64,000 nt of DNA, taken from Leclercia adecarboxylata. Its GTDB lineage: Bacteria > Pseudomonadota > Gammaproteobacteria > Enterobacterales > Enterobacteriaceae. The position numbers and the translations under genes are program-made. The notes beneath the pieces were generated by a model. The model saw only the letters and a program-made list of their open reading frames with translations, was not told the DNA's origin and made no database searches. This document shows positions 9,375 to 53,671 of this stretch, piece after piece. The stretch is taken from the NCBI RefSeq assembly GCF_006171285.1, contig NZ_CP040888.1:263618-327617 (forward strand). Reading direction: 5' to 3'. Within the stretch, counting starts at the first letter, position 1; each line of letters opens with the position of its first letter.

Positions 9375-9396
9375 GGGGTCGTCTCAGAAAACGGAA
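9370..9396. repeat. Left target duplication (TGATC) and outer part of left terminal repeat
   Basis: TGATC at 9370-9374 is followed by the first 22 bases of a Tn21-subgroup 38-bp terminal repeat (GGGGTCGTCTCAGAAAACGG...). The remaining 16 bases are at 10724-10739, beyond the IS4321-like element. The same arrangement is mirrored at the right end. Confidence 0.95.
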
Positions 9397-10723
9397 TCTA
9401 TGGTCACTCCCGTTTTTGCAACACCGATTTTGACGACAAGTTGGCTTGCTTGAATCTATCCGGCGTCTGAATGGGATTTTATTCCCGCGCCTTGATGAGT
9501 TCCGCGCCTGATGAACCTCCAGAAAATATACGGCTTCAATGAGCCTTTCCGTTTTACAGGTTCCTCAACAGGCCGGTGGGCCGTTAGTATCATCAATATC
9601 AGTATTCGCAAAACCAGATCAGTAATTCTTTAAACCGGTGTATTTCTGCCGTTATGCTACATAAGTTTGCTGTCGTGCCGTTAGGGCCCAGGCTATTCTG
9701 GCCAGCTTGTTTGCCAGAGCACAAGTGACGACAAAGTTGCTTTTCCGGCACAGTAAATCCCTGACCCAATCGGCCAATTTGCCAGACTGGTGTTCCAGTT
9801 TTTGTATGAATACCCTGGCACATTGAACCAACAAAGTTCGGATCTTTTTATTACCTCGCTTACTAATTCCCAGCAATGTCGTCCTACCTCCCGTGCTGTA
9901 CTGCCGAGGTACAAGCCCTGTTGCCGCCGCAAAGTCACGGCTGCTGGCGTACTGCTTCCCGTCGCCAATCTCAGTTGAAATAGTACTCGCTGTCAGTGTT
10001 CCGACGCAGGGAATGCTCAGCAAGCGCTGTCCAACCTCATCTTCGTCCAACTTTCGTTTCAACTGGGATTCCAAATCTTTAATCTGCTCAACAAGATAGT
10101 GATAATGCTGTTGTAATTTCAGCAATAACTGGCTGAGGTAAAGAGGCAAACTATTATCCTCAAGAATGGTACTCAGTCGGCTAATAACGGCAGCTCCTCG
10201 GGGAACGCTAATGCCAAATTCCAGCAGAAAAGCATGCATTTGATTGGTTGTTTTTACCTTATCCTGAACCAGGGATTCACGGACACGATGCAGAGCCCGC
10301 ATTGCCTGCTGAGATTCCGTTCTGGGCTGCACAAAACGCATAGACGGACGCGATGCAGCTTCACAAATAGCTTCGGCGTCGACAAAGTCGTTTTTATTGC
10401 TTTTAACGAACGGGCGGACAAATTGTGGTGATATCAGCTTTGGGGAATGCCCCAACTCTTCCAACTTGCGTGCCATAAAGTGAGAACCGCCACAGGCTTC
10501 CATTGCGATGGTTGTAGCGGGGCATGTCGCCAAAAATTCGATCAACTTTGGCCGGGTAAATTTTTTACGGTAAACAGCCTTCCCGCGACGATCCTGGCAA
10601 TGAATATGGAAAGAGTTTTTACCCAGATCGATACCAATGAGCGCAATGTTTTCCATGATAGTTCTCCGAATGAAAGCCTGTCCTCAGCATAGTACCGGGA
10701 AGGAGGGAGTGACCATCTCATTA
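9397..10723 (-). mobile_element. IS4321/IS5075-type IS110-family element, left copy
   Basis: A 1327-bp insertion inside the left 38-bp terminal repeat, splitting it 22+16. The length and the site are those known for IS4321/IS5075, which target Tn21-family terminal repeats. It encodes one transposase. An inverted copy lies at 52318-53644. Confidence 0.93.
9652..10656 (-). CDS. IS110-family transposase (IS1111 subgroup), left copy
   Basis: 334 aa. The N-terminal DEDD nuclease domain begins ALIGIDLGKNSFHIH with the first catalytic Asp, followed by IAMEACGGSH and NDFVDAEAICEA. The C-terminal transposase_20 domain has RLLSIPCVGTLTASTI and the serine-containing GLVPRQYSTGGRTTLLGISKRGNKKIR. Such enzymes integrate without target duplication using a seeker RNA or sequence recognition. 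Protein identical to that of the right copy as far as I can read. Confidence 0.95.
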   Translation of the reverse strand: MENIALIGIDLGKNSFHIHCQDRRGKAVYRKKFTRPKLIEFLATCPATTIAMEACGGSHFMARKLEELGHSPKLISPQFVRPFVKSNKNDFVDAEAICEAASRPSMRFVQPRTESQQAMRALHRVRESLVQDKVKTTNQMHAFLLEFGISVPRGAAVISRLSTILEDNSLPLYLSQLLLKLQQHYHYLVEQIKDLESQLKRKLDEDEVGQRLLSIPCVGTLTASTISTEIGDGKQYASSRDFAAATGLVPRQYSTGGRTTLLGISKRGNKKIRTLLVQCARVFIQKLEHQSGKLADWVRDLLCRKSNFVVTCALANKLARIAWALTARQQTYVA

Positions 10724-10739
10724 AATAAAGCACGCTAAG
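10724..10739. repeat. Inner 16 bases of the left terminal repeat
   Basis: AATAAAGCACGCTAAG, the inner portion of the 38-bp Tn21-type repeat separated from its outer portion by the IS4321-like element. The tnpR stop codon lies within it. Confidence 0.9.
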
Positions 10740-11292
10740 CGTGCGTGGAGGCTGGCACCCAGCGGTACAGCGTCGGAATGGACACGCCGAGGTTCTTGGC
10801 CACGTCCTTGGGCGGCACCCCGCTGGCCAGCAGCTTCTTGGCCGACTCGATCTTGCTGTCGGTCATCTTCGGCTTGCGGCCGCCTTTGCGGCCGAGCTGC
10901 TTGGCGACTTCCAGCCCGGCGCGGGTGCGCTCGACGGTCAGCTCGCGCTCCATTTCGGCAAGGCTCGCCATGACGTGGAAGAAGAACCGCCCGGATGGTG
11001 TGCCGGTGTCGATGGAGTCGGTGAGGCTCCTGAACTGGACACCGTGCTTGTGCAGATCGCCGACCAGATCGACCAGTTGCTTGACCGACCGGCCCAGCCG
11101 GTCGAGCTTCCAGACGACCAAAGTATCGCCTTCGCGCAGCATTTCGAGCGTCTTGGCCAAGCCAGGCCGGTCTGCCCGCGTGCCACTCACCTTGTCCTCG
11201 AAGACCTTTTTACATCCGGCCTTGCTCAAGGCTTCGCGTTGCAGCTCCAGGTTCTGATCCTGCGTCGAGACGCGCGCATAGCCAATCAACAT
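10735..11292 (-). CDS. tnpR: Serine recombinase/resolvase of the Tn3-family transposon
   Basis: 185 aa, a full-length small serine recombinase. GYARVSTQDQNLELQ at the N-terminus contains the catalytic Ser (residue 8); GDTLVVWKLDRLGRSVKQL is the conserved active-site helix with the Arg pair; a C-terminal helix-turn-helix of the Hin type (GVPPKDVAKNLGVSIPTLYRWVP) follows. It would resolve cointegrates or invert DNA. The stop codon sits inside the left terminal repeat, so it is the terminal gene of the transposon. The start overlaps the end of the 123-aa gene by a few bases. Confidence 0.9.
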   Translation of the reverse strand: MLIGYARVSTQDQNLELQREALSKAGCKKVFEDKVSGTRADRPGLAKTLEMLREGDTLVVWKLDRLGRSVKQLVDLVGDLHKHGVQFRSLTDSIDTGTPSGRFFFHVMASLAEMERELTVERTRAGLEVAKQLGRKGGRKPKMTDSKIESAKKLLASGVPPKDVAKNLGVSIPTLYRWVPASTHA

Positions 11293-11657
11293 GGCTTGTC
11301 TCGCGCCCGGTCGATGCGTTCCTGCATCGCCTGCATCACTTCTTCGTGGGTGTACGATCTGGCGTTGGCGTCGGTGGCTTGCCGCAGGGCTTCCTCAACC
11401 TCGCGCGTCATCCGCTCGTAATCCTCCGGCCACAGCGCTTGCTCCATGCGCAGCGACGCCTGACTCAGCAGGTGCAGCAGGCTGAACAGCCGCATGTCGT
11501 TGGTGGCGACGATGCGCTCCCGAATCTGCTCCTGAATAGCTTCGCTAGCCCGATGCGCTTGTGGTGTGGCAGTCCCCTCGTAGTCAGCGGGGAATTCCGC
11601 TTCCTCGGCAATCCTTGCCCAGGCGCTGGCCAGCGCCTCGATGGTTGACGTGCTCAT
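11286..11657 (-). CDS. Hypothetical helical protein, 123 aa, in resolvase operon
   Basis: Not recognised. It is acidic and almost wholly helical by composition, with EQIRERIVATND and a C-terminal EEVMQAMQERIDRARDK helix that recalls small antitoxins or coiled-coil accessory proteins. I chose the ATG at 11657 (MSTSTIEALAS); longer reading into the neighbouring membrane gene is not supported. Its stop overlaps the tnpR start, and its start overlaps the stop of the membrane protein gene, so four genes appear to be co-translated. Confidence 0.55.
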   Translation of the reverse strand: MSTSTIEALASAWARIAEEAEFPADYEGTATPQAHRASEAIQEQIRERIVATNDMRLFSLLHLLSQASLRMEQALWPEDYERMTREVEEALRQATDANARSYTHEEVMQAMQERIDRARDKPC

Positions 11658-12154
11658 TTCCGCCGCTCCTGTGCTCTTTGGCGAATCAACCGGCCAAGGG
11701 GCCTCGACGCGAAAACCAGCAGCATCACGCCTATCGGATACCAGGTCGAGAAGACCACCAAGGCATCGAAGGCTGGCCGTCCGGTGTTGGTAGGCAGTAC
11801 GGCGGTCACAGCCATCAACCCGCCGACCGTCCAGATGATGCGCCACACGTAGGGCATCACGCGGGGCACGTAGCCGTCATCGAAAGCGGTCTGGTAGTAG
11901 CGGCGCAGGCCGCGCTCGGCAAGCGCCTGGCGCTGCCGCTCCGACAGCGCATCCGTCCGGCCATACCAGCGCCGGAATGGTGGACAGCGCAGCAGCAAAG
12001 GGGTGAAGAGGATCATCACCGCCACGATCGCGACACCCCACGCCATGACGGCGCCGGCATCGGGCCGCTTGGCGTTCTCGATCACGGGCGCGAAGACGCC
12101 CGGAGCACCGATCATCCAGAACAGCGCAATGTGCTGATGGAAGGAGAGCTTCAT
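11654..12154 (-). CDS. Hypothetical inner-membrane protein, 166 aa
   Basis: Four likely transmembrane segments: near residues 8-25 (ALFWMIGAPGVFAPVI), 35-58 (AGAVMAWGVAIVAVMILFTPLLL), about 105-125 (IIWTVGGLMAVTAVLP) and 135-155 (YPIGVMLLVFASRPLG). A positively charged loop (RRWYGRTDALSERQRQALAERGLRR, part) lies between the second and third. The ATG at 12154 overlaps the preceding stop (ATGA). Function unknown; it is part of the left-end accessory operon. Confidence 0.6.
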   Translation of the reverse strand: MKLSFHQHIALFWMIGAPGVFAPVIENAKRPDAGAVMAWGVAIVAVMILFTPLLLRCPPFRRWYGRTDALSERQRQALAERGLRRYYQTAFDDGYVPRVMPYVWRIIWTVGGLMAVTAVLPTNTGRPAFDALVVFSTWYPIGVMLLVFASRPLGRLIRQRAQERRK

Positions 12155-12477
12155 TTGCTCATCCACTTGCGCAGCAGGCGCTTTTTCAGGGAGGCGCGTT
12201 CTTGCGGGTTGCGTCCCTTGTGATTGGCGATGCGATCCGCCGTGGCGGCCTGGCGCTTGACGGGCCAGTAGGAGCGGCCATCCTTGCCCATCGACCAGAC
12301 GCTGCTGGCCTGGTTTTCCAGCAGGGGCAGATGGGCGCTCAGGGCTTCGGGCGACGCGCTGGTCAGCGCCGTGCGCTCACGGGTGCGCCAGCGCTGATGC
12401 CAGAGCTTCTTGTCCTCGCGCTCGCTGCCGCAGGTCGTGTGCCCGACGATGGGTGTTTTGCGGCGGCTGCGGCTCAT
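12151..12477 (-). CDS. Hypothetical basic protein, 108 aa
   Basis: Very rich in Arg and Lys (SRSRRKTPIVGHTTCGSERED at the start, SLKKRLLRKWMSK at the end), suggesting nucleic-acid or ribosome contact, but no fold is recognised. First gene of the overlapping set that leads to tnpR. Confidence 0.5.
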   Translation of the reverse strand: MSRSRRKTPIVGHTTCGSEREDKKLWHQRWRTRERTALTSASPEALSAHLPLLENQASSVWSMGKDGRSYWPVKRQAATADRIANHKGRNPQERASLKKRLLRKWMSK

Positions 12478-12731
12478 AACGTAGTGGTCTCCAAGAACAT
12501 TCAGGACTGATCCCAGGCGTCGATGGTCAAGACCTGATCGGCAGGACAGGCGGCTACGCGGTCGGGAACTGGATGGTGTTCAGTCTCATGCCGACCCCAT
12601 TCGATTGATCGCGTCGCTTGCGGCACGCTGCGACGCAAGGAGGTTTGCGACCTGGTTTAGCAGCCGTGTCCGCTGCATGTCTGTTACCTATCTCCCCGAC
12701 CGCTCATTGGACCAACTCCAGAGATTGGGCT

Positions 12732-13088
12732 CTATCGCTCAGCCAATACGAAACCGGCATTGGCTGATGCCACAACCGAGACGAACACAAATGGCTCGGT
12801 ACCTGTATTTCGCGCCCCGTGCACTTGGCCCGGTCTTGCCACGGCTATCTCACCTTCCCTGAGGGCACGAACAATCCCATTGCCCTGAAAGTAATCAGCC
12901 ATTCCCGACAAAACAGTCCACGTGTCTTGGCCGTGAGGATGAATGTGAGCCGCAATTTCCTGCCCGGGATGGACATGCCAAACCACGATAATTGAGTCTC
13001 GGGTTTCAAGCACAACGGAACGAATAGGCTCGCCTTCGGACGGCTGAACATACTCGGCTACAGAAAATATTCTCGATTCAACAGTCAT
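12732..13088 (-). CDS. Cupin-domain protein
   Basis: 118 aa, a single cupin barrel. The metal motif is seen as HVHPGQEIAAHIHPHGQDTW followed by GEIAVARPGQVHGARN, giving the usual three His plus a Glu. Such small cupins bind a metal and act as sensors or dioxygenase-like enzymes. The ATG at 13088 overlaps the end of the hepT gene, with GAGGGA upstream. Its substrate cannot be told. A longer frame upstream overlaps hepT and is not used. Confidence 0.7.
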   Translation of the reverse strand: MTVESRIFSVAEYVQPSEGEPIRSVVLETRDSIIVVWHVHPGQEIAAHIHPHGQDTWTVLSGMADYFQGNGIVRALREGEIAVARPGQVHGARNTGTEPFVFVSVVASANAGFVLAER

Positions 13089-13479
13089 CGGAGATCCCTC
13101 TTTCACAGTTGTCGTTACGGTCTTCATCGTCGGCATCCTGACGCACGGCGGGCAATTGCTGGAGCAACGCCGGCAGCCATTCCTGTACCGTCTCCCACAC
13201 CACATCGAGGTTGATGTCGAAATAGCCGTGAGCCATGCGATTACGCATATTGCGCATGCTGCGCCACGGCACGTCGGCATGCGCCTGGGTGAACTCGACG
13301 TAGCCATCCATCACCTTTGTGGCCGCCTCGCCGATGACGATCAGGCTCATGATGACGGCCTGCTGGGTGCGCTTGTCGGCCAAGAAGTCGTCCTTGGCCA
13401 TCCCTTCCACGAAGCTGCGCGCATCGGTTGCGGCCTGCTGAATGTGGTCGAGGTAATCGGGCAGGCGGTTCTCGCTCAT
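13078..13479 (-). CDS. hepT: HepT-like HEPN ribonuclease toxin
   Basis: 133 aa. The HEPN motif R-x4-H-x-Y is present as RNRMAHGY, in the usual place about two thirds along. HEPN toxins of this class cleave tRNA or mRNA; the partner MntA AMPylates the Tyr of the motif to silence it. The start ATG overlaps the mntA stop. The last ~20 residues (DADDEDRNDNCERG...) are an acidic tail that overlaps the cupin gene and may be dispensable. Confidence 0.85.
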   Translation of the reverse strand: MSENRLPDYLDHIQQAATDARSFVEGMAKDDFLADKRTQQAVIMSLIVIGEAATKVMDGYVEFTQAHADVPWRSMRNMRNRMAHGYFDINLDVVWETVQEWLPALLQQLPAVRQDADDEDRNDNCERGISDDC

Positions 13480-13766
13480 ATCGGTTGCGCCTCCGCGAGC
13501 ACCTTGGCCCGGAACTTCGGCGGCAGGTCGCCGGGAGTCAGCAGATCGACGTCAACGCCGAGCAGCGATTTCAGTTCTTCTTCCAAATCGCCCAAGTCCA
13601 ACAACGTGGCACCGGGCAGCGCATCGACCAACAGGTCGAGGTCGCTGCCATCCCGGTCGGTGCCATGCAGCACCGAGCCGAAGACGCGCGGGTTCGCGGC
13701 GCGAAAGCGGCCTACCGCTTCACGCACTGCGCTTCGCTTCATGTCAAGCACAACAGACGGTCGCAT
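13476..13766 (-). CDS. mntA: MntA-like minimal nucleotidyltransferase antitoxin
   Basis: 96 aa. The nucleotidyltransferase signature GS-x10-DxD is complete (FGSVLHGTDRDGSDLDLLVD), and the family's third acidic residue may be the Asp of DVDLL. It should AMPylate and neutralise HepT. The ATG at 13766 has AAGGA at good distance; the ATG at 13772 has none. It is the first gene of the hepT/mntA pair and lies just inside the Tn402-like remnant's left flank. Confidence 0.85.
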   Translation of the reverse strand: MRPSVVLDMKRSAVREAVGRFRAANPRVFGSVLHGTDRDGSDLDLLVDALPGATLLDLGDLEEELKSLLGVDVDLLTPGDLPPKFRAKVLAEAQPI

Positions 13767-13900
13767 GCGCATCCTTTCTTATCGAAACTCGTTGAGATGA
13801 TATGCAATCAAGAATAGAATTTCAAGAACTATTTTCGAGAATCGCAATGCCTTGATTCCCGTGCCGCGCTGTCGTTTTCAGAAGGCGACTGCACGAAATA

Positions 13901-14476
13901 TCAGGAGTCGGCTGCACTGCCAGAACTGGCCGCCTGCAAGGCAGCGTAGAGAGCGGTTTTTCCTACCTTGAGGCGTGCGGCGGCCTCGCGGACATTCAAG
14001 CCGTTGGCGACAAGCTCCCGCGCTCGTTGCAACTTGTCGGCAGTGACAACCGGCTTGCGTCCGCCTTTGCGCCCGCGTGCGGCGGCAGCGGTCAACCCGG
14101 CCTTGGTGCGCTCGCGGATCAGGTCGCGCTCGAACTGGCCCAGCGCACCGAACACATGGAAGATGAGCCGTCCGCCCGGCGTGGTGGTGTCGATGTTTTC
14201 AGTCAACGAGCGGAAGCCGACGCCCCGTGCTTCCAGCTTGCCGACCGTCTCAATCAGGTGCGGCAGGGAGCGGCCAAGCCGATCCAGCCGCCAGACGACC
14301 AGCACATCGCCATCGCGCAGATAAGCCAGCGCATCGGCCAAGCCGGGCCGGTCTGCCTTGGCCCCGGATGCCGTGTCCTCGAAAACCCGTTCGCAGCCTG
14401 CATTGCGCAGCGCATCCGTCTGCAAGGCGGTGTCCTGTTCCGCCGTCGATACCCGCGCATAGCCGATGAGTGCCAT
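13901..14476 (-). CDS. Serine resolvase of the Tn402-like remnant (TniR-like)
   Basis: 191 aa, complete. Catalytic serine in GYARVSTAEQDT (residue 9), GDVLVVWRLDRLGRSLPHL, GRLIFHVFGALGQFERDLIRER and a C-terminal helix-turn-helix (GLNVREAAARLKVGKTALYAAL). The first gene base lies just inside the left Tn402-type end, and res-like repeats lie directly upstream, the normal tniR-res order. About half-identical in pattern to the tnpR at 10735, so the transposon now has two different resolvases. Confidence 0.85.
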   Translation of the reverse strand: MALIGYARVSTAEQDTALQTDALRNAGCERVFEDTASGAKADRPGLADALAYLRDGDVLVVWRLDRLGRSLPHLIETVGKLEARGVGFRSLTENIDTTTPGGRLIFHVFGALGQFERDLIRERTKAGLTAAAARGRKGGRKPVVTADKLQRARELVANGLNVREAAARLKVGKTALYAALQAASSGSAADS

Positions 14477-15630: not shown

Positions 15631-16119
15631 ATGAGCATTTTCGACCGTTATGAATTTCTTGTCCCCGAGCACGGTCGGAGGGATCTTGGCCTGCTTAGAT
15701 GGGCTCTCGTGATCGTATTTCTGTGGTTCGGCGCGATGAAGTTCACAGCGTACGAGGCCTATGGTATCGCCCCGTTTATCGAACACAGCCCGATCATGAA
15801 TTGGCTCGGCATGTTCGGGACGCAGGGGCAAAGCTATTTCATCGGCGTTATCGAGTTATCGACCGGTCTCGTTCTGATCCTTGGTGCATTTCGTCCACTC
15901 TTCTCTGCGCTAGGCGCACTAATGTCAGCAGCGACCTATCTGATCACGCTGACCTTTTTCATCACCACTCCAGGTGTCGCGGAGCAGACTGCCGGCGGCT
16001 TTCCTGCGATTTCGGCTGCACCAGGGCAGTTTCTACTGAAGGACGCAGTTCTGCTAGCGGCGTCCCTCGTGCTGCTGCGTGCTTCGGTCCGCCACAGAGG
16101 GGCGCTTGTGCTCTCGTGA
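15631..16119 (+). CDS. YkgB/RclC-like DUF417 inner-membrane protein
   Basis: 162 aa. The DUF417 pattern is clear: LRWALVIVFLWFGAMKFTAYEAYGIAPFIEHSPIM, then GVIELSTGLVLILGAF, a third helix, TFFITTPGV and GQFLLKDAVLLAASL. Four transmembrane helices are expected. The E. coli member RclC is part of the RclR regulon and supports survival in hypochlorous acid. ATG at 15631 with GAGG upstream, and the palindrome at 15539 in its promoter. DoxX is the related alternative name. A second homologue is at 46417-46932. Confidence 0.8.
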   Translation: MSIFDRYEFLVPEHGRRDLGLLRWALVIVFLWFGAMKFTAYEAYGIAPFIEHSPIMNWLGMFGTQGQSYFIGVIELSTGLVLILGAFRPLFSALGALMSAATYLITLTFFITTPGVAEQTAGGFPAISAAPGQFLLKDAVLLAASLVLLRASVRHRGALVLS

Positions 16120-16631: not shown

Positions 16632-17171
16632 ATGGATGGACCTCGAGATCGAAACATTTTCGGGGCGTTCGCACTCATGATCAGCGACGACATCGTTCGC
16701 GCTAGTTCATCGCGGGCGCCGGAAGCTGGACCCGCCGCCTCAGCGCTGGCGTTGCTCGCGCACAAGCCCGGGCTCTCGATCCGTATGCTTGCGATCGGGG
16801 TGGGCCTTTCACATGCTGGAACTGTTCGCCTGGTGGATAGATTGGTAAGCGAGGGATTGATCGAGCGTAGGGAGCATTCGACAGACGGGCGCGCGCGATC
16901 CCTCTATCTTACTCCAACTGGCAAGGTCGCGAGCGACGAGGTCCTGGCCTCGCGCGATCAAGTGATTGCCGAAGGGCTATCGATCCTTAATCCAGACGAA
17001 CTGAAAACCTTATCGGACATCGCTGAACGCGTTCTCCGAAATCGCTTGGAAAACCTCGAGCAGTCATACCGCATCTGCCGCTTGTGCTGCTACGAGGGCT
17101 GCACGAACTGCCCCGTCGATGCCGAATTGCATGAGCGAGGTGTGGACCGCGAGAAGAACGACGACGCGTAG
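16632..17171 (+). CDS. MarR-family regulator with C-terminal cysteine cluster
   Basis: 179 aa. The winged-helix domain has GLSIRMLAIGVGLSHAGTVRLVDRLVSEGLIERREHSTDGRARSL (read in parts), with the typical DxR wing. The C-terminus carries RICRLCCYEGCTNCP, five cysteines in 14 residues, outside the DNA-binding part; such a cluster could sense oxidants by disulfide formation or bind a metal. I chose ATG 16632 by alignment with the truncated paralogue at 15288. It probably binds the ATATGCG palindromes in this block (inference). Confidence 0.75.
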   Translation: MDGPRDRNIFGAFALMISDDIVRASSSRAPEAGPAASALALLAHKPGLSIRMLAIGVGLSHAGTVRLVDRLVSEGLIERREHSTDGRARSLYLTPTGKVASDEVLASRDQVIAEGLSILNPDELKTLSDIAERVLRNRLENLEQSYRICRLCCYEGCTNCPVDAELHERGVDREKNDDA

Positions 17172-17567: not shown

Positions 17568-18593
17568 TCAAGGCAGGGTAACGACGATTTTCGCTGCGGA
17601 TACACCCGCCTTCAGGGCTTCCAAGGCAGCCTGGAGCATTTCAAGGCCCTGGCCCACGATCTTCGCCGGAGGGGCGGGGACGAACGTGCGCGCCGCGAGA
17701 GCCTGCGGCAGGAATTCGCGGTAGATCATTGGACCAACCTCGTCATCCTTGAGGCTCGTCCCGGAGATGTGCGTCGCCTCGACTCCAAATGAACGCTCGT
17801 CGGGCGGGGCCAGCGTCGCTGCCACCCGGCGCGAGCCCTCGCATCTCGCAACTACGGCAAAACAGTCTTTCATGTGACCGGTCGCGTGAAGCGTTCCAGC
17901 GAGACTGCGCCCGCGCATTGCCTCAATCACGTCTTCCACGATGGCTGGACTCGAGTGGTCAAGAACCTCGCTTGCACCCAGCTCCTTCAACAGGCCGACG
18001 TTGCGCGCCGAAGCGGTGGCGACGCACCTGTAGCCCGACGCCACCGCGAGCTGGATGGCGTTGCAGCCAACGCTCGACGATCCACCCCAGACCAGAACGA
18101 CCTCTGGACGCGCGGTCGGCGAGTGTAACGGTGGCGCGAGAGCCAACTGTGTCCGTCCGTAGAGCCCGCTTGCGGCGGTGCCAAGGCCAAGCGGGAGGAC
18201 TGCCGCATCAGCGAAGGCAATGTTGTTGGGGATCGGCGCCGCCATGTGGTCCAGCACGATCGTGTGGTGCTGGAACGCACCCTGCGCAGGTTGATTTACG
18301 GTTGTCCCGACCGCCTGTCCGATGACTCGATCGCCGACCTTGAACCGCTCGACCGCGCCACCGACCGCCGCGACCTCACCGGAGACGTCGCTGCCGAGAA
18401 TCGCGGGATAGTCGAGCCATGGCAAAAGCGCGACGTCCTGCAGAATCCAGTCGAGTGGGTTGATCGCGATGGCCGCGTTGCGGATCAATATCTCGTTCGC
18501 CGCCAGATGCGGCAGAGCGGTGACACCGATCCTCAGTGGCTGCCCCGGCGCTTTCTGCCAGGCGGCCTGATTAGTCACGGTTTCGGTCATCAT
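17568..18593 (-). CDS. MDR-superfamily NAD(P)-dependent oxidoreductase
   Basis: 341 aa. GroES-like N-terminal domain with NPLDWILQD and LGSDVSGEVAAVG, then a Rossmann domain with VVLVWGGSSSVGCNAIQLA (nucleotide-binding loop). No structural zinc cysteine quartet is seen, so it is likely a zinc-independent quinone or enone reductase. Last gene of the operon hydrolase/OsmC - msrA - MDR; its start overlaps the msrA stop (TGATG). It could remove reactive quinones or carbonyls made by oxidant damage (inference). Confidence 0.75.
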   Translation of the reverse strand: MMTETVTNQAAWQKAPGQPLRIGVTALPHLAANEILIRNAAIAINPLDWILQDVALLPWLDYPAILGSDVSGEVAAVGGAVERFKVGDRVIGQAVGTTVNQPAQGAFQHHTIVLDHMAAPIPNNIAFADAAVLPLGLGTAASGLYGRTQLALAPPLHSPTARPEVVLVWGGSSSVGCNAIQLAVASGYRCVATASARNVGLLKELGASEVLDHSSPAIVEDVIEAMRGRSLAGTLHATGHMKDCFAVVARCEGSRRVAATLAPPDERSFGVEATHISGTSLKDDEVGPMIYREFLPQALAARTFVPAPPAKIVGQGLEMLQAALEALKAGVSAAKIVVTLP

Positions 18594-19156
18594 CAACTCT
18601 TTCTGTCAAGTATTACAGCTGGGCGTTCGTCTGAGCGGTCCAACCGCCAGGTCGGGCGCACGAAGTGGCAGCTATAGCCCCCAGGATAGCGCACCAGGTA
18701 TTCTTGGTGCTCTGGCTCCGCCTCCCAAAAGGGTTCTTCTGGGTTGATCTCCGACACGACCGGGCCTGGCCAGCTTCCTGATGCCTCGATTTCCGCGATG
18801 GTTGTGAGGGCGACTTCCTTCTGCACTTCGGTGGTGTAGAAAATCGCCGATCGATAGCTCGGACCGACATCGCTGCCTTGTTGCTCGTAGGTCGTGGGGT
18901 CATGTATCTGGAAGAAGAGTTCCAAGAGCGAGCGATAGGCGAGAACGGAAGGGTCGAAGGTCACTTCCACTGCTTCCGCATGGCCGTAATGTCTCGCGTA
19001 GGTCGGATCAGGCATTTCTCCGCCTGTGTAACCGACACGCGTCGAAATGACTCCCCTGGCTCGGCGCAGCAAATCCTCCATGCCCCAGAAGCAGCCGCCT
19101 GCGAGAATTGCTCGCTCTGTCGCGGCCGCCCTATTGCCGGTAGGCGATTGGCTCAC
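18593..19156 (-). CDS. msrA: Peptide methionine (S)-S-oxide reductase
   Basis: 187 aa. MsrA motif [17 protein letters not shown] with the catalytic Cys, followed by [31 protein letters not shown] and YRSAIFY, all typical; the GYSCHFVRP end holds the second Cys. It reduces the S-form of methionine sulfoxide in proteins. I chose the GTG at 19156, preceded by GGAGGAGG about 11 bases away; the upstream ATG at 19282 would run into the OsmC gene. Middle gene of the operon. Confidence 0.9.
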
Positions 19157-24458: not shown

Positions 24459-24549
24459 GTAACGCACTTCGCGAGCTTCTCCGTCCGCCGAGTCACAGCG
24501 CGCTTTGTGCGCGAGCGTGTCCAATCCAGTTCAAGATGAAGGTGCTTCC

Positions 24550-27969: not shown

Positions 27970-27972
27970 CGG

Positions 27973-44661: not shown

Positions 44662-45234
44662 CTATATCGATGTTAACTCTACACCTGACTCTGTCAATTT
44701 ATGCGTATCAACATAGTGGCTGAAACGTGCTAATAAGAAGGTGAGTTTTGGATGAATGTACCTTTGACAAAATGGTCTGTTGGGTGCTGTATAAAAGTAG
44801 TCGATAAGCTCAGTTTTATTCGCTTTAAAATCCTTAAAAAAATAAACCTGAGTAATGACTGGCTGCTCAAAATCAGCTCTACAGGCATCTAATATGTTTA
44901 CAGCCTGGTTATACTGAACCTCATCATAAGCGTATATCGCTGAACGATATTTACCACGCATTGAGTGGTTTGATGTGCTCGCGTGAGTATGTAAATGGGT
45001 TTCGATCAAGGTTGATAAAGAAATAACAGTCGGATCAAAAACCACTTCAATGGCTTCGCTGAACTGAGCGTTGTCACCAATTGAGGCGATCCAACCTTGA
45101 TTGACAGTAGCAATGCCAATAAGTGATGAAAATACGCCTTCGGTGCACCAGTGACAACCACCGCCTAAGCCGATTGTATTAAGGGTGGTTGTCGTATGCA
45201 AATTGCAAGTCTGTGTGGGCTGCTGCAAACTCAT
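44662..45234 (-). CDS. msrA: MsrA-family protein with variant active site
   Basis: 190 aa. The usual GGCFWG is [12 protein letters not shown], with a second Cys three residues on, and the domain continues [34 protein letters not shown] and [14 protein letters not shown]. This variant MsrA type is seen in some gammaproteobacteria. ATG at 45234 overlaps the stop of the msrA at 45231 (ATGA). Last gene of the block C operon. Confidence 0.8.
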
Positions 45235-45731
45235 TGAGATGAGGGCAACTTCCAGTCTGGTCTGGGGAAGTGGCAGGTATAGCCATTTGGTCGGAGTTCC
45301 AAATAGTCCTGATGCATAGCCTCCGCTTCCCAAAAATCACTTGCAGGTTCGACTTCAGTCACTACTTTTCCAGGCCATAATCCCGAAGCATCCACGTCAG
45401 CAATGGTTTTTACTGCCTCAGCATGCTGTGCCTCAGAGGTATAATAAATGGCTGAGCGATAAGATGTGCCCTTGTCATTACCTTGTCTATTTACTGTACT
45501 AGGGTCATGAATCTGAAAGAAAAACTCTAAAATTTGTCGATAGCTGGTGATTTCATTATCGAACATTATTTCAATGCCTTCAGCATGGTTACCATGATTG
45601 CGGTAGGTAGCATTAGCCACTTCACCACCGGTATAACCTACTCGGGTTGAAGTGATACCGGGACGTTTGCGGATAAGATCCTGCATGCCCCAAAAGCAGC
45701 CACCGGCTAATACTGCGCGTTCAATTGCCAT
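45231..45731 (-). CDS. msrA: Peptide methionine (S)-S-oxide reductase
   Basis: 166 aa. [47 protein letters not shown] (in parts), [19 protein letters not shown] and [12 protein letters not shown]. It is strikingly close in motif order to the msrA at 22117 although its base composition is much lower in G+C. Three bp after msrB. Middle gene of the block C operon. Confidence 0.93.
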
Positions 45732-45733: not shown

Positions 45734-46180
45734 TTAAATGTCCTCTACTTGGTCTAAATACTCTGCGTAACCTTTACTTGCCATTTCTTCCCTAGGAATA
45801 AAACGTAATGACGCTGAGTTAATACAATAACGTAGGCCACCCTGGTCTTTGGGACCGTCTGAAAATACATGGCCTAAGTGACTGTCGCCATGAGTTGAGC
45901 GCACTTCTGTGCGGGTCATGCCGTGCGACCTATCAGTGATTTCAATTACGTTGACAGAGTCTATCGCTTTGGTAAAGCTCGGCCAACCACACCCTGATTC
46001 ATACTTGGCAGAAGACGCAAATAAAGGCTCACCTGACACGATATCCACGTAAATGCCGGGCTTGGTGTTCTTTAGCAATTCACCAGTCCCTGGACGCTCT
46101 GTACCATTTTCTTGCGTCACCCGATACTGCTCCTTAGTCAGAGCAGAAATCGCATTCATAGATTTTTGATAGGTATTCAT
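45734..46180 (-). CDS. msrB: Methionine (R)-S-oxide reductase, zinc-less form
   Basis: 148 aa. [33 protein letters not shown] and [13 protein letters not shown] with the catalytic Cys; CxxC zinc motifs absent, as in the msrB at 21672. ATG at 46180 with GAGGA upstream; the first gene of msrB-msrA-msrA. Confidence 0.92.
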
Positions 46181-46416: not shown

Positions 46417-46932
46417 TTATTTGTTTTTGTGCTCCAGTGCTGTAAGTGATGTGCCTACGATAAATATAGACACGACAAACAAGCCTAAATCTTTTAGCAA
46501 AAACTGGCCAGGAACCACAGAGATCGCAGGAAACCCAAGAGATGCCTCAAAAACACCGGGTGTAGTCAGCATGAACGACAATGTCGTAAAAAAGAGTCCG
46601 GTTGAAAGTACACCGCCCAAGATTGCGAGCTTAGGGGAGAAAACTCGTGCAGCGATTAACAGGCCAACTGAAATTTCAAGCACACCCAGAAAATTTGAGA
46701 ATCCTTGAATGCTGAGGAAACTATACATCCATGAAAGCAGAGGGCTATTACTAACAAAACCATGTATACCGTTTGCTTCGTAGCTAGTGAATTTCATACC
46801 ACCAAACCACAAATATATTATCGTCATGGCAACGTAGATGCCACCTATACCAAACTTAGTGACTTTTGCACCGAGATTATTACTAAGGATATTGGTAGTC
46901 TGGACACCATTTTCAATTTCGGGAATAGTCAT
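46417..46932 (-). CDS. YkgB/RclC-like DUF417 inner-membrane protein
   Basis: 171 aa, four transmembrane segments. IYLWFGGMKFTSYEANGIHGFVSNSPLLSW, GVLEISVGLLIAARVF, SFMLTTPGVF and FPAISVVPGQFLLKDLGLF follow the same order as the block A homologue at 15631. GGAG precedes the ATG at 46932. Its independent presence in a second cargo block is a main argument for a reactive-chlorine function. Confidence 0.8.
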   Translation of the reverse strand: MTIPEIENGVQTTNILSNNLGAKVTKFGIGGIYVAMTIIYLWFGGMKFTSYEANGIHGFVSNSPLLSWMYSFLSIQGFSNFLGVLEISVGLLIAARVFSPKLAILGGVLSTGLFFTTLSFMLTTPGVFEASLGFPAISVVPGQFLLKDLGLFVVSIFIVGTSLTALEHKNK

Positions 46933-47069: not shown

Positions 47070-47624
47070 TTAGACATCAATGCCTAGTGGTTGAACGGCC
47101 GGGAAGTCGACCTCGGTCTGTGTCACTTCGTTAACGTAGTTAGTGAAAGTGTTCAGGGCAACAGCCAACAGAATATCCACTACATGTGCATCACTGTAGC
47201 CAGCGTTCAGCACCGCTTGGACCTGGTCATTGCTGACTTGCCCGCGCTGGCGGACTACGGCGGCAGCAAAACGCACGGCTGCGTCGGCCTTAGGGTCATT
47301 TGATGCACCGCTGCGGTTGGCAGTGAGTTCAGCATCATCAAGCTTGGCCACCTTACGGCCTAGGAAGGAATGGCCAGCAAGGCAATAATCGCAGCCGTTG
47401 ATCTCAGCGACGGCTAGGGCAATACGCTCAAGAGTCGCTGTACCCAAGCCGCCCTGTGCTGATGCTGCGCTCAATTGCAGGTAGCCAGTCAGCGCAGCAG
47501 GGCTGTTGGCAACGACGCGGAACATGTTAGGAACGCGGCCCAGTTGTTTTTCCACAGCCTTGAGTGAGGTATGGGTAGCAGTAGGCGCGGCGTCGATTGT
47601 GGTAGGGGTGTTCAAACGTGACAT
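47070..47624 (-). CDS. Carboxymuconolactone decarboxylase/AhpD-like protein
   Basis: 184 aa, all-helical. The redox motif CDYCLAGH (CxxCxxxH) sits at about residue 84 in AEINGCDYCLAGHSFLGRK. AhpD-type proteins reduce peroxides or act with peroxiredoxins. ATG at 47624 with AGGAGA upstream. Between DUF417 and the promoter remnant; same strand as the msr operon. Confidence 0.88.
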   Translation of the reverse strand: MSRLNTPTTIDAAPTATHTSLKAVEKQLGRVPNMFRVVANSPAALTGYLQLSAASAQGGLGTATLERIALAVAEINGCDYCLAGHSFLGRKVAKLDDAELTANRSGASNDPKADAAVRFAAAVVRQRGQVSNDQVQAVLNAGYSDAHVVDILLAVALNTFTNYVNEVTQTEVDFPAVQPLGIDV

Positions 47625-47764: not shown

Positions 47765-47860
47765 CACACCTTCGTTGACGTCACGCCGTCCTGATTTCTA
47801 AGGAGGTCTTCGAGACTCCAAAAACACCCTCCGGCAACGATCACATTATTTATTTTTCAT
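47765..47860 (-). pseudogene. msrA 5' remnant, frameshifted copy of the gene at 38510
   Basis: The minus strand repeats the start of msrA (GTGATCGTTGCCGGAGGGTG, then TTTTTGGAGTCTCGAAGACC and GTGACGTCAACGAAGGTG) with one extra base after the sixth nucleotide, giving MKNK and a stop. Similarity ends near 47765. Confidence 0.88.
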
Positions 47861-47985
47861 AAAGCCTCCTTGGTTTTTATCTATTTACTAATGGAACTGA
47901 ATTTACAGCATGTAAAATAGATATAACATGCTCAATAGTTCGTATAATGTGACTTATTAGACAGTTTACGTAGGGGCTATGTCAG
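47861..47985. promoter_or_regulatory. Decayed copy of the araC/msrA divergent promoter
   Basis: Inverted relative to 38388-38509 and clearly homologous, including AAGGAGGCTTT, ACAGCATGTAAAATAGATAT, the 33-bp palindrome and ACAGTTTACGTAGG. It ends at the former araC start, where the ISAs1 element begins. Confidence 0.85.
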
Positions 47986-49423
47986 GGTGAGAGCGTGAAC
48001 ATTTTGTTAAATTTCACCCAGTTTTTTGAGACCCGCATTGAGTACCGTTTCCAGATATTCACTGCTCATTCCTGCGATTTTTTGCTTCCGTCTTACGCTC
48101 GCCTTGCGTGAAGTCTCGGCCCTGAGCATGTTCAGCCCCATGTGCCGGATGCACGCCAAAATCTCTGCGGCATCACCGCGATAAATCGGGCAATCATCCT
48201 CGCCCATCGTGACGTCCAGCACCCAGTGCAGGCTATTTTCGATGGCCCAGTGCCCACGCACCGCTCGCGCAAACTCATCCTGCACCAACGCTTTGGAACT
48301 GATGAAATAACGCTGCTCTATGGTAATTTTTTGCATATTTTCAACGCGATAGGAGATGGCCACGCCAATGCTGTGCAACTGTTTCCAATGAGGAAACTGG
48401 GCGGCCAACTCGCCCGCCGCCATGACATGGTACTCACGACCATCGATGCGGCCATGAGCCTTCTCAAGCGTCATCGTCTCTGCGCATAACGGGGTGGCCG
48501 CCAGCGGGGCGAGGGCCTGTCGAACCGCCTCGAACAACTTGGGTTGGTTGCCTTTGACGGCCAATAAGTAATCGCCACCTTGCTGAAGGATGGTCTCGGC
48601 GATCTCGGTCTGGCACCCCATCGCATCGATGGATACCAGGCAGCCTTTGATGTCGAGCAGCGCCAGCAACTCGGGAATAGCGGTAATTTCATTGGACTTG
48701 GCGTCGGTTTTTATCTGTCCGAGCACCAGCTTATTGGCGGCGGCATAGGCACTGACCATGTGAATGGTCGACGTTCGATCCTCACGGTCATAGGAACTGC
48801 GCAGGGTTTTGCCATCGATAGCGACCAGGGCGCCATCGGTGTGCTGGTTAATGGCTTGAGTCCACCGCACAAAGGCGGCCTGAAACGGCTCTGGTTTGAT
48901 GCCGGAGATGATCCTGGCAATGGTGTCATGGACAGGAATGCCGTTTTTAAACAGTCCCTTGGATTGAAACCAGGGAAGATGAACCTCGCCGAAATCCTCA
49001 ATATCTTCCCAGCCCTCAGCCCCGCCGATCACGGCACAGACGGTGAGAAACAGGACATCGTAGAAGGGATAATAAATCTTGGCATGCTGGCGAGGGTCGT
49101 GAATATTGTCGAAGAACTGAGCGAAAACGGCATCAATAGACATGAGAGCACTCCTGAAAAGGAGCATGAGATCACAGCCGGATCACCAGGTCAAATTTCA
49201 GGGTGAGGATGTGAGCAAATTGTTAACTATGGAAATCATGGAAATTATCATTTTTTGGATTTCATGCGCATTTTTTGAGCTGAAATGACGTGCAGTGACG
49301 ATTAAAAAGTGTGAAGGCGATCCTGACTATAAAGTTAACTGCATATCACAGGCCTATAAGTATTTGTTTTGTAGGCAAAAAACTATTTTTAATTTTTAAC
49401 AAAATGTTCACGATCTCGCCCTG
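47983..49423 (-). mobile_element. ISAs1-family element
   Basis: Ends are CAGGGTGAGAGCGTGAACAT at 47983 and the inverse of CAGGGCGAGATCGTGAACAT at 49423, about 1441 bp. A third partial copy of the end (CAGGGTGAGGATGTGAG) is internal at 49199, so the right side may hold a duplicated or nested end. Confidence 0.7.
48007..49143 (-). CDS. ISAs1-family transposase
   Basis: 378 aa from the ATG at 49143 (AGGAG upstream). DDE_Tnp family with VAIDGKTLRSSYDRED, VSIDAMGCQTEIAE, YLLAVKGNQPKL and RGHWAIENSLHWVLDVTMGEDDC, the ISAs1 signature with the catalytic Glu. Confidence 0.93.
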   Translation of the reverse strand: MSIDAVFAQFFDNIHDPRQHAKIYYPFYDVLFLTVCAVIGGAEGWEDIEDFGEVHLPWFQSKGLFKNGIPVHDTIARIISGIKPEPFQAAFVRWTQAINQHTDGALVAIDGKTLRSSYDREDRTSTIHMVSAYAAANKLVLGQIKTDAKSNEITAIPELLALLDIKGCLVSIDAMGCQTEIAETILQQGGDYLLAVKGNQPKLFEAVRQALAPLAATPLCAETMTLEKAHGRIDGREYHVMAAGELAAQFPHWKQLHSIGVAISYRVENMQKITIEQRYFISSKALVQDEFARAVRGHWAIENSLHWVLDVTMGEDDCPIYRGDAAEILACIRHMGLNMLRAETSRKASVRRKQKIAGMSSEYLETVLNAGLKKLGEI

Positions 49424-50662: not shown

Positions 50663-52306
50663 TGGCAGAAGCTGGTGATGACCGACACCGGCATCGACCG
50701 GCGCTACTACGAACTGTGCGCGCTGTCGGAGCTGAAGAACGCGCTGCGCTCCGGCGACATCTGGGTGCAAGGCTCGCGCCAGTTCAAGGACTTCGAGGAC
50801 TACCTGGTGCCGCCCGCGAAATTCGCCAGCCTCAAGCAGGCCAGCGAATTGCCGCTGGCCGTGGCCACCGATTGCGACCAGTACCTGCATGACCGGCTGA
50901 CGCTGCTGGAAACGCAGCTCGCCACCGTCAACCGCATGGCGCTGGCCAACGAGCTGCCGGACGCCATCATCACGGAGTCGGGCCTGAAGATCACGCCGCT
51001 CGATGCGGCGGTGCCCGATACCGCACAGGCCCTGATCGACCAGACGGCGATGATCCTACCGCACGTCAAGATCACCGAATTGCTGCTGGAGGTAGACGAA
51101 TGGACGGGCTTCACCCGGCACTTCGCCCACCTGAAGTCAGGCGACCTGGCCAAGGACAAAAACCTGTTGCTGACCACGATCCTCGCCGACGCGATCAACC
51201 TGGGCCTGACCAAGATGGCGGAATCGTGCCCCGGCACGACCTACGCCAAGCTGGCCTGGCTGCAAGCCTGGCACATCCGCGACGAAACCTACGGGGCGGC
51301 ACTGGCCGAGCTGGTCAACGCGCAGTTCCGACATCCCTTCGCCGAGCATTGGGGCGACGGCACCACGTCATCGTCGGACGGCCAGAACTTCCGCACCGGC
51401 AGCAAGGCCGAGAGCACCGGCCACATCAATCCGAAATACGGCAGCAGCCCAGGGCGGACGTTCTACACCCATATCTCCGACCAGTACGCGCCGTTCCACA
51501 CCAAGGTCGTGAACGTCGGCGTGCGCGACTCGACCTACGTGCTCGACGGCCTGCTGTATCACGAATCCGACCTGCGGATCGAGGAGCACTACACCGACAC
51601 GGCAGGGTTCACGGACCACGTCTTCGCGTTGATGCACCTGCTGGGCTTCCGCTTCGCCCCGCGCATTCGTGACCTGGGCGACACCAAGCTCTACATCCCG
51701 AAGGGCGATGCCACCTACGAGGCGTTGAAACCGATGATCGGCGGCACGCTCAACATCAAGCACGTCCGCGCCCATTGGGATGAAATCCTGCGGATGGCCA
51801 CCTCGATCAAGCAGGGCACGGCGACGGCCTCGCTGATGCTCAGGAAGCTTGGCAGCTACCCGCGCCAGAACGGCCTGGCCGTCGCCCTGCGTGAGCTGGG
51901 ACGCATCGAGCGCACACTGTTCATCCTGGACTGGCTGCAAAGCGTCGAGCTGCGCCGCCGCGTGCATGCCGGGCTGAACAAAGGCGAGGCGCGCAACGCG
52001 CTGGCCCGCGCCGTGTTCTTCAACCGCCTGGGGGAAATCCGCGACCGCAGCTTCGAGCAGCAGCGCTACCGGGCCAGCGGCCTCAACCTGGTGACGGCGG
52101 CCATCGTGCTATGGAACACGGTCTATCTGGAGCGGGCCGCGAACGCCTTGCGTGGCCACGGTCAAGCCGTCGATGACGGCCTGTTGCAGTACCTGTCGCC
52201 GCTCGGCTGGGAGCACATCAACCTGACCGGCGATTACCTCTGGCGCAGCAGCGCCAAGATCGGCGCGGGCAAGTTCAGGCCGCTACGGCCGCTGCAACCG
52301 GCTTAG
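50663..52306 (+). pseudogene. tnpA: Tn21-subgroup transposase, 5'-truncated
   Basis: About 547 codons, the C-terminal part of a ~990-aa Tnp[64 protein letters not shown] and the end [18 protein letters not shown] are typical. The 5' part is replaced by the Tn1721-like end. Its stop codon lies at the right terminal repeat of the 44-kb element, so it is that element's own transposase, now inactive. Confidence 0.93.
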
Positions 52307-52317
52307 CGTGCTTTATT
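52302..52317. repeat. Inner 16 bases of the right terminal repeat
   Basis: CTTAGCGTGCTTTATT, the inverse of 10724-10739; the outer 22 bases follow the IS at 53645-53666. Confidence 0.9.
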
Positions 52318-53644
52318 TAATGAGATGGTCACTCCCTCCTTCCCGGTACTATGCTGAGGACAGGCTTTCATTCGGAGAACTATCATGGAAAACATTGCGC
52401 TCATTGGTATCGATCTGGGTAAAAACTCTTTCCATATTCATTGCCAGGATCGTCGCGGGAAGGCTGTTTACCGTAAAAAATTTACCCGGCCAAAGTTGAT
52501 CGAATTTTTGGCGACATGCCCCGCTACAACCATCGCAATGGAAGCCTGTGGCGGTTCTCACTTTATGGCACGCAAGTTGGAAGAGTTGGGGCATTCCCCA
52601 AAGCTGATATCACCACAATTTGTCCGCCCGTTCGTTAAAAGCAATAAAAACGACTTTGTCGACGCCGAAGCTATTTGTGAAGCTGCATCGCGTCCGTCTA
52701 TGCGTTTTGTGCAGCCCAGAACGGAATCTCAGCAGGCAATGCGGGCTCTGCATCGTGTCCGTGAATCCCTGGTTCAGGATAAGGTAAAAACAACCAATCA
52801 AATGCATGCTTTTCTGCTGGAATTTGGCATTAGCGTTCCCCGAGGAGCTGCCGTTATTAGCCGACTGAGTACCATTCTTGAGGATAATAGTTTGCCTCTT
52901 TACCTCAGCCAGTTATTGCTGAAATTACAACAGCATTATCACTATCTTGTTGAGCAGATTAAAGATTTGGAATCCCAGTTGAAACGAAAGTTGGACGAAG
53001 ATGAGGTTGGACAGCGCTTGCTGAGCATTCCCTGCGTCGGAACACTGACAGCGAGTACTATTTCAACTGAGATTGGCGACGGGAAGCAGTACGCCAGCAG
53101 CCGTGACTTTGCGGCGGCAACAGGGCTTGTACCTCGGCAGTACAGCACGGGAGGTAGGACGACATTGCTGGGAATTAGTAAGCGAGGTAATAAAAAGATC
53201 CGAACTTTGTTGGTTCAATGTGCCAGGGTATTCATACAAAAACTGGAACACCAGTCTGGCAAATTGGCCGATTGGGTCAGGGATTTACTGTGCCGGAAAA
53301 GCAACTTTGTCGTCACTTGTGCTCTGGCAAACAAGCTGGCCAGAATAGCCTGGGCCCTAACGGCACGACAGCAAACTTATGTAGCATAACGGCAGAAATA
53401 CACCGGTTTAAAGAATTACTGATCTGGTTTTGCGAATACTGATATTGATGATACTAACGGCCCACCGGCCTGTTGAGGAACCTGTAAAACGGAAAGGCTC
53501 ATTGAAGCCGTATATTTTCTGGAGGTTCATCAGGCGCGGAACTCATCAAGGCGCGGGAATAAAATCCCATTCAGACGCCGGATAGATTCAAGCAAGCCAA
53601 CTTGTCGTCAAAATCGGTGTTGCAAAAACGGGAGTGACCATAGA
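52318..53644 (+). mobile_element. IS4321/IS5075-type element, right copy
   Basis: 1327 bp, inverted with respect to 9397-10723 and inserted at the equivalent base of the right terminal repeat. Confidence 0.93.
52385..53389 (+). CDS. IS110-family transposase, right copy
   Basis: 334 aa, same as the left copy: N-terminal DEDD domain (GIDLGKNSFH) and C-terminal STGGRTTLLGISKRGNK serine region. Confidence 0.95.
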   Translation: MENIALIGIDLGKNSFHIHCQDRRGKAVYRKKFTRPKLIEFLATCPATTIAMEACGGSHFMARKLEELGHSPKLISPQFVRPFVKSNKNDFVDAEAICEAASRPSMRFVQPRTESQQAMRALHRVRESLVQDKVKTTNQMHAFLLEFGISVPRGAAVISRLSTILEDNSLPLYLSQLLLKLQQHYHYLVEQIKDLESQLKRKLDEDEVGQRLLSIPCVGTLTASTISTEIGDGKQYASSRDFAAATGLVPRQYSTGGRTTLLGISKRGNKKIRTLLVQCARVFIQKLEHQSGKLADWVRDLLCRKSNFVVTCALANKLARIAWALTARQQTYVA

Positions 53645-53671
53645 TTCCGTTTTCTGAGACGACCCCTGATC
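53645..53671. repeat. Outer part of right terminal repeat and right target duplication
   Basis: TTCCGTTTTCTGAGACGACC and CC, the inverse of 9375-9396, then TGATC at 53667-53671. Confidence 0.95.

Follow-up and report, generated by a model that had tools for sequence, protein, structure and literature searches.

A probable composite oxidant-defence cargo with a candidate RclR-type regulon on an IncHI2A-type plasmid of Leclercia adecarboxylata

In Escherichia coli, the regulator RclR drives rclABC, including the gene of the DUF417 protein RclC, after exposure to hypochlorous acid (HOCl) (PMC7464077). As described for Pseudomonas aeruginosa, RclR activates its single-gene neighbour, the gene of the AhpD-like RclX, and the two proteins confer protection from HOCl and hypothiocyanous acid (HOSCN) (PMC7950407). 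The rcrARB operon of uropathogenic E. coli is described as controlled by a repressor, RcrR, and as free of msr genes; its DUF417 protein, RcrB, is named the main contributor to HOCl tolerance in strain CFT073 (PMC9600549). Chlorite dismutase is reported to be routinely accompanied by methionine sulfoxide reductases (Msr) (PMC9751292), and the LHR island is listed in a review as conferring chlorine resistance (PMC9189398). Here we describe a 44-kb island (positions 9375 to 53666) in a 64,000-nucleotide stretch of Leclercia adecarboxylata DNA (contig NZ_CP040888.1; the whole stretch is called the window), which combines msr genes with DUF417 genes, an AhpD-like gene and a Cupin_6/AraC regulator. 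Contig C1 of this genome contains the window, and the plasmid records closest to it come from Enterobacteriaceae; one of them is the IncHI2A plasmid p208355-NR. The host replicon is an IncHI2A-type plasmid.

The explanation we favour, with somewhat better than even confidence, is that the island holds a composite oxidant-defence cargo in an older transposon shell. The cargo would consist of two separately acquired modules, A (blocks 2 and 3) and B (block 1); module A would form a regulon under the Cupin_6/AraC regulator, with hypohalous oxidants as inducers. Our confidence is not higher because the regulator lacks Cys21 of RclR, so that its sensing chemistry or its signal differs. The features of module A on which this explanation leans are listed below; changes (dN/dS) are counted against the related plasmid pALWED1.1 of Acinetobacter lwoffii.

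37452..38387, minus strand: Cupin_6/AraC regulator (PF12852 and PF12833; dN/dS 0.09)
38414..38450, plus strand: predicted operator, 21-bp-spaced direct repeat
38510..38998, plus strand: msrA3 (PF01625)
39002..39262, plus strand: glutaredoxin 1, CPFC (PF00462; cysteine list)
39294..39734, plus strand: msrB2, two CXXC pairs (PF01641; cysteine list)
39789..40028, plus strand: glutaredoxin 2 (tblastn, 86% to the pALWED1.1 glutaredoxin)
40240..40902, plus strand: msrA4, a divergent MsrA (PF01625; under the TIGR00401 cut-off)
44662..45234, minus strand: msrA5, GCHWC type (PF01625; under the TIGR00401 cut-off)
45231..45731, minus strand: msrA6 (PF01625)
45734..46180, minus strand: msrB3, two Cys, no CXXC (PF01641; cysteine list)
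46417..46932, minus strand: DUF417 (RclC/RcrB family) of block 3 (PF04224; some homologs named YkgB/RclC)
47070..47624, minus strand: AhpD-like (CMD) protein with CXXC (PF02627; ahpD_dom)
47767..47979, minus strand: duplicated promoter and broken msrA start, ahead of ahpD-DUF417 (188/213 identical to 38391-38602)
47920..47956, minus strand: further copy of the predicted operator with a weaker repeat (6/12; 58.7 bits against 59.0 for the first)

Oxidant defence as the role of the island is well supported by its gene content. The six full-length msrA genes named in the earlier note, a reading of the sequence alone, all match PMSR (PF01625), its three msrB genes all match SelR (PF01641), and every one of these frames is open (6/6 and 3/3). 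The motif cysteine is present in all six MsrA frames, as GCFWG in five and GCHWC in the gene at 44662, if the frame upstream of msrA1 is included. The earlier list lacked a seventh msrA match, which is broken, at 47590-47844. Profile searches of the whole genome at E 0.001 gave eight PMSR and four SelR matches, and because seven and three of these fall in the window, the cluster is not a matter of chance; one further msrA and one further msrB lie outside. The two DUF417 genes score 102.7 and 116.2 bits with PF04224, whose cut-off is 27, and each is 32% identical to RclC. Domain matches also bear out the glutaredoxin at 39002, the alpha/beta-hydrolase-OsmC fusion, RidA, GST, the CMD/AhpD-like protein (its CXXC being Cys78-Cys81) and two zinc-type alcohol dehydrogenase/quinone-reductase-like genes, and homology does so for the second glutaredoxin (39789-40028). 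The protein at 27973, labelled TlpA-like, gave no Pfam match at E 0.001, so this label is unconfirmed. With its GCHWC motif in place of GCFWG and a score well under the curated MsrA cut-off, msrA5 possibly represents a distinct MsrA subfamily.

In the proposed regulon, the Cupin_6/AraC regulator would bind the direct repeat of 21-bp spacing within the divergent promoter, thereby switching on msrA3-grx1-msrB2-grx2-msrA4. The duplicated promoter would let it drive ahpD-DUF417 too, and its reach may possibly extend to the msrB3-msrA6-msrA5 triple. MsrA and MsrB, fed by glutaredoxin, would repair oxidised methionines, while the AhpD-like enzyme would remove the oxidant and the DUF417 membrane protein would protect the cell. 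The likeliest inducers would be the hypohalous oxidants HOCl, N-chloramines and HOSCN, a specificity that is plausible by analogy with the described systems. What can be read from the sequence itself is the gene content, the promoter duplication, the conserved site, the linkage in other taxa and purifying selection on four module A genes.

The duplicated stretch comprises the spacer that separates the AraC gene from msrA3, along with the first 93 bases of msrA3. It occurs in 47 plasmid records, at two or more places in 39 and at one place in eight. We aligned the region from four lineages, namely the window and metagenome-assembled genomes (MAGs) of a Cyclobacteriaceae (L010), a Bdellovibrionaceae (L011) and a Cytophagales member (L013). 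The aligned region holds a direct repeat near AAGTCATATTAT with a spacing of 21 bp, the spacing of classic AraC half-sites. Jointly, 34 of 48 cells match, a value reached by 47 of 5000 column shuffles at any spacing and by 0 of 5000 at spacing 21; this test was made after the single-sequence tests and the four lineages and 12-base width were our choice, so that 47/5000 is the fairer figure. Repeat strength is 8 to 9/12 in the four lineages and 7/12 in the msrA3 copy of pALWED1.1. Invariant columns are modestly enriched in the predicted site (21/37, against 23/74 in the rest of the intergenic region; Fisher p 0.013). A 37-bp operator model built from nine sequences, both window copies included, scored 59.0 and 58.7 bits at the two window sites; next came 20.2 and 16.3 bits, which are opposite-strand overlaps of the same sites, and then at most 7.3 bits. 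Elsewhere, the model peaked at 3.5 bits in the 8-kb stretch of E. coli with rcl and at 2.5 bits in a 39.75-kb stretch of Aeromonas caviae pFBAOT6, the close relative of block 1, and thus no site of this kind is seen in block 1 or rclABC. Together, the promoter copy and the conserved predicted site suggest one regulon.

The island shares with RclR-rclABC a Cupin_6/AraC regulator, an architecture we take to be that of RclR itself, and a DUF417 membrane protein; it differs in having msr, glutaredoxin and AhpD genes instead. RcrR is of the TetR type, and the likeness to rcrARB lies in the DUF417 protein. RclR-RclX, set alongside by its description, resembles the island in having an AraC-type regulator beside an AhpD-like CXXC protein, to which the island adds msr, glutaredoxin and DUF417 genes (PMC7950407).

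The linkage of regulator and msr genes extends to other taxa. Eight loci carry the regulator at 74% identity or more, and six of them have a divergent msrA: Shewanella, Aeromonas, a Cyclobacteriaceae, two Bdellovibrionaceae and a Cytophagales record. The other two turn into unrelated sequence from just inside msrA (L008) or from the intergenic region (L009). The Shewanella locus (L006) is that of strain ANA-3 itself, and L011 and L012 hold the same region, which leaves fewer independent cases. The regulator-msr operon in the MAGs L010-L013 (Cyclobacteriaceae, Bdellovibrionaceae, Cytophagales; regulator 74-94%) is far removed from Gammaproteobacteria. The scan covered the best 80 of 96 related loci. 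At 72 loci with a regulator of 40% identity or less, several of them on short contigs, we found msrA at 0, msrB at 1, AhpD at 5 and glutaredoxin at 5 (E 1e-6). A signature of purifying selection is seen in four module A genes, the regulator, msrA3, msrB2 and msrA4 (dN/dS 0.09, 0.12, 0.08 and 0.14, respectively); the value for DUF417 is 0.24, from 7 changes. The comparison with pALWED1.1 covered six genes; the diguanylate cyclase differs in length between the two plasmids, and the AraC gene is saturated against Bdellovibrionaceae.

Several observations weigh against a regulon of the RclR kind. The label RclR-like, used in the earlier note, stands at the domain level (Cupin_6 and HTH_18 match the regulator at 37452), but identity is 29% over 193 aa. 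The redox pair of RclR is Cys21-Cys89 (PMC7464077); here a Thr takes the place of Cys21, and the equivalent of Cys89 is Cys117. The best 120 of 219 regulator homologs were taken, 115 of them longer than 270 aa; in these 115, Cys21 occurs in none and Cys117 in all, so Cys117 is not diagnostic of the clade. Either the sensing chemistry or the signal thus differs from RclR. Neither RclA nor DUF417 is annotated beside the AraC gene in the near-identical relative, so an adjacent rclABC is lacking there; the block 3 DUF417 gene lies 8 kb from the AraC gene, behind the promoter copy, and RclA matches in loci L006 and L011-L013 are weak (23-41%). Taken singly, the sequences give no significant repeat (49 to 500 of 500 shuffles equal it). 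Because both ahpD copies keep just 6/12 repeat positions, the duplicate before ahpD may be a weaker site. The dN/dS of ahpD, 1.03, is uninformative (1 synonymous and 3 non-synonymous changes). Finally, the msrB3-msrA6-msrA5 triple sits 236 bp behind DUF417 inside a 59-bp inverted pair and is absent from pALWED1.1 in the stretch examined; for these reasons it may be a later insertion with its own promoter. The triple is therefore counted as a possible part of the second operon. The inverted pair (98%; 44338-44396 and 46274-46332) frames msrA5-msrA6-msrB3 and ends 84 bp short of DUF417. It may form the ends of a small mobile unit; similar copies occur in 18 plasmid records, some from Shewanella and Vibrio.

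In favour of the regulon counts a search of 369 genomes with the block 3 DUF417 protein at E 1e-5. Nine, our own included, had a match, and in 5 of the 8 others an AraC-type gene lies within about 1.5 kb of DUF417 (two of the five are of the same genus). Among these five regulators, a Cys stands one column off RclR Cys21 in three and exactly there in one (L094). As a separate observation, the loci L089, L090, L091 and L094, from other Gammaproteobacteria, pair DUF417 with an AraC-type regulator having Cys at or beside the Cys21 column, and three of the four have a glutaredoxin.

Blocks 2 and 3 belong together. They are 99.96% and 99.97% identical to two stretches in one 11.4-kb region of the plasmid of Shewanella sp. 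ANA-3, where their relative orientation differs from the window; an inversion between the two inverted ISAhy2 copies of the window would account for this change. On pALWED1.1, block 2 (92% and 89%) lies together with the ahpD-DUF417 part of block 3 (98%). The G+C contents are 0.609 for block 1, 0.441 for block 2 and 0.453 for block 3, so there are two base compositions and not the three claimed earlier, and the companion claim that the three blocks came from unrelated bacteria is not supported, given the joint occurrence and similar composition of blocks 2 and 3. A DUF417-msrB-msrA theme was indeed gathered more than once, twice from two sources and not from three. MsrB subclass does vary to the extent that block 2 alone has a CXXC-pair MsrB (with its two CXXC pairs, msrB2 is presumably of the zinc type); blocks 1 and 3 share one type and are 66% identical in DNA across msrB-msrA.

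pALWED1.1 carries the regulator, msrA3, both glutaredoxins, msrB2, msrA4, AhpD, DUF417 and both promoter copies. Its host, A. lwoffii ED23-35, is described as isolated from permafrost aged forty thousand years (PMC8490738), so the core of module A probably predates industrial chlorine and chlorine disinfection, barring later contamination of the sample. Selection by chlorine disinfectants, suggested in the earlier note, is thus unlikely as the origin. Some carriers were sampled in sewage or hospitals, and later, modern selection there is possible. Plasmids with the module are found in hospital, sewage and environmental isolates; if the favoured explanation is true, one transferable segment would give its host self-regulated repair against bleach-type oxidants, and the module would be a small test case for the growth of regulons through copied promoters. 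The permafrost plasmid would separate the origin of such tolerance from modern disinfection. A bolder proposal, which we put forward tentatively and hold to be somewhat less than evenly probable, is that module A is a mobile, cross-phylum hypohalous-oxidant regulon grown by promoter duplication. Its Cys21-independent RclR-type regulator would join the DUF417 branch of E. coli and the AhpD branch of P. aeruginosa to glutaredoxin-fed Msr repair; the module would be tens of thousands of years older than chlorine disinfection, and in nature it would be selected by biological halogen or thiocyanate oxidants, such as those of phagocytic protists or haloperoxidases.

In Acinetobacter, msr regions on plasmids were noted earlier as probable oxidative-stress regions. 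Plasmid pAbe229-114 has methionine sulfoxide repair regions, and an ISAba1 composite transposon with oxidative-stress genes was proposed for it, in an account whose accessible text mentions no regulator, promoter duplication or link to reactive chlorine species (PMC6863613). Legionella ICE-betaox, likened here by its description, is also a mobile element linked to oxidative-stress tolerance but, unlike the island, an integrative conjugative element (as cited in PMC5413113). In the mostly open-access literature covered, with few subscription papers, no report naming the island or the promoter duplication turned up, and the promoter-duplication architecture is what we regard as new.

Module B repeats the DUF417, msrB and msrA theme beside LysR and MarR regulators. 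Its features, and the mobile-element remains that follow it, are listed below.

15631..16119, plus strand: DUF417 (RclC/RcrB family) of block 1 (PF04224, E 2.2e-29; 32% to E. coli RclC)
16785..17171, plus strand: MarR-family regulator, N-terminus probably called short (PF12802; longer form annotated in pFBAOT6)
17568..18596, minus strand: alcohol dehydrogenase/quinone-reductase-like (PF08240)
18593..19081, minus strand: msrA1, with its GCFWG motif shortly before the start as annotated (PF01625; upstream frame)
19189..20421, minus strand: alpha/beta hydrolase-OsmC fusion (PF12146 and PF02566)
20650..21525, plus strand: LysR-type regulator (PF00126/PF03466; 27.6% to OxyR, 23% to HypT)
21672..22115, plus strand: msrB1, single Cys, no CXXC (PF01641; cysteine list)
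22117..22656, plus strand: msrA2 (PF01625)
22789..26167, plus strand: GST, CorA, two hypotheticals, RidA (domain matches)
26198..30463, minus strand: MFS, DM13, unassigned protein, DUF1330, HbpS-like, second alcohol dehydrogenase (domain matches)
31073..36902, no strand: mobile-element remains, namely ISApu1, second IS4-type transposase frame, Tn3 transposase fragment (34337-36397), IS1

The msrA1 start given in the annotation of a relative is probably wrong, as it leaves the GCFWG motif upstream. Block 1 and the following mobile-element remains (16090-34303) are 99.98% identical over 18.2 kb to pFBAOT6, whose IncP-6 msrB-msrA-yfcG-corA cluster is the counterpart of block 1; beyond distant msrB-msrA similarity, the 39.75-kb pFBAOT6 stretch has no match to module A. 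The counterpart runs past DUF417 into the conjugation genes trbG and trbI, which hints at an earlier integrative-element phase of block 1. An msr cluster of this type was termed backbone in the p10265-KPC paper, where, in the text available, its function is not argued for (PMC4785139). The LysR protein at 20650 is 27.6% identical to OxyR over 243 aa and has a Cys near 199 and none at 208; the switch residues of OxyR we take to be Cys199-Cys208, so this switch is lacking. Given such weak similarity (23% in the case of HypT), neither OxyR nor HypT was accepted as the identity of the block 1 regulator.

The alternative that survives best, though we consider it unlikely, is an island for general repair of methionine-sulfoxide and peroxide damage that is not specific for chlorine or thiocyanate oxidants, its cue being H2O2, organic peroxides or metal-driven oxidation. 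Msr, glutaredoxin, OsmC and GST are general oxidant genes, the regulator is without RclR Cys21, and the block 1 LysR is weakly closer to OxyR than to HypT. The carriers ANA-3 and pALWED1.1 are described as bearing metal-resistance genes as well (PMC5067307). However, the island has the components linked to HOCl or HOSCN in E. coli and P. aeruginosa, namely two DUF417 genes and AhpD together with a Cupin_6/AraC regulator; the LysR protein lacks OxyR Cys208, and a Pfam scan of 39 window proteins found no catalase domain. It is improbable that the genes accumulated passively, hitchhiking on a resistance plasmid with no present role. The many insertion sequences (IS) and the broken genes (the msrA fragment, the shortened hypothetical and the thiolase remnant) would suit such a history, but every one of the six msrA and three msrB frames is open, the four module A genes bear the mark of purifying selection, and MAGs of other phyla retain the regulator-msr operon.

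The last alternative concerns the shell, whose features are as follows.

9375..10740, no strand: left outer Tn21-type inverted repeat, IS4321-interrupted (I1 repeat, inverted repeat, target-site duplication TGATC)
10735..13869, minus strand: left arm of the shell, with resolvase, hypotheticals, cupin, DUF86 and nucleotidyltransferase (at least 99.9% to pSTm-A54650, which has mer cargo, and pFBAOT6)
13901..14476, minus strand: second resolvase (PF00239)
50675..52306, plus strand: C-terminal 543 aa of a Tn3-family transposase (PF01526; 100% to pFBAOT6)
52301..53666, no strand: right outer inverted repeat, IS4321-interrupted (inverted-repeat match; same junction in at least 205 plasmid records)

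The outer repeats start at 9375 and end at 53666, IS4321 lies within both, the 5-bp duplication is TGATC, and the joined flanks give a 680-aa open frame, all of which would fit a Tn21-type insertion. In pSTm-A54650, the same repeats, the same duplication (on the opposite strand) and the same 3.2-kb left arm enclose mer genes where the msr cargo sits, and pWW19C-IncHI2 has mer genes inside the left junction. The left junction occurs in at least 188 plasmid records and the right one in at least 205 (at least 80% of a 400-base query); both island queries are covered to at least 97% in nine, the window's own record possibly not counted. The duplication is therefore not taken as proof of unit transposition. 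Least probable of all, a shade below passive accumulation, is the claim of the earlier note that the 44-kb segment is one Tn3-family transposon inserted as a unit: the paired repeats, the duplication, the 680-aa frame and a 1011-aa frame on contig C8 of this genome, which includes a stretch matching the inner tnpA piece at 100% identity, speak for it, but mercury cargo lies between the same repeats and duplication, the shell is in many more records than the island, both repeats are interrupted, and no full-length Tn3 transposase was found inside the island (frames of 686 and 543 aa only). What stood of that claim is a horizontally moved oxidant-defence set with RclC-family and Cupin_6/AraC genes. 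Under the composite explanation, the msr cargo most likely replaced an older cargo in the Tn21-type shell, and the simplest history would start from an old mer-type insertion in IncHI2, with recombination then exchanging its interior.

Four further features lie among or beside the genes of module A.

37147..37449, minus strand: first 99 aa of a protein 246 aa long in ANA-3, cut beside IS1 (homology)
41122..42099, minus strand: GAF-GGDEF diguanylate cyclase (domain match)
42282..43313, plus strand: ISAhy2, one of an inverted pair (partner 49455-50489)
48007..49143, minus strand: ISAs12, adjoining the duplicated promoter

The diguanylate cyclase (41122-42099) adjoins msrA4 in Shewanella, Aeromonas and Acinetobacter too, which may point to a connection of biofilm signalling with the oxidant response. 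A thiolase remnant at 40123-40227 keeps 35 aa in the window, in ANA-3 and in the Aeromonas locus L007; in pALWED1.1 and the Bdellovibrionaceae MAGs, a thiolase lies between glutaredoxin 2 and msrA4, with a monooxygenase-like gene adjoining. Beside ISAhy2, a fragment at 43325-43990 matches the start of the long DUF3584 family.

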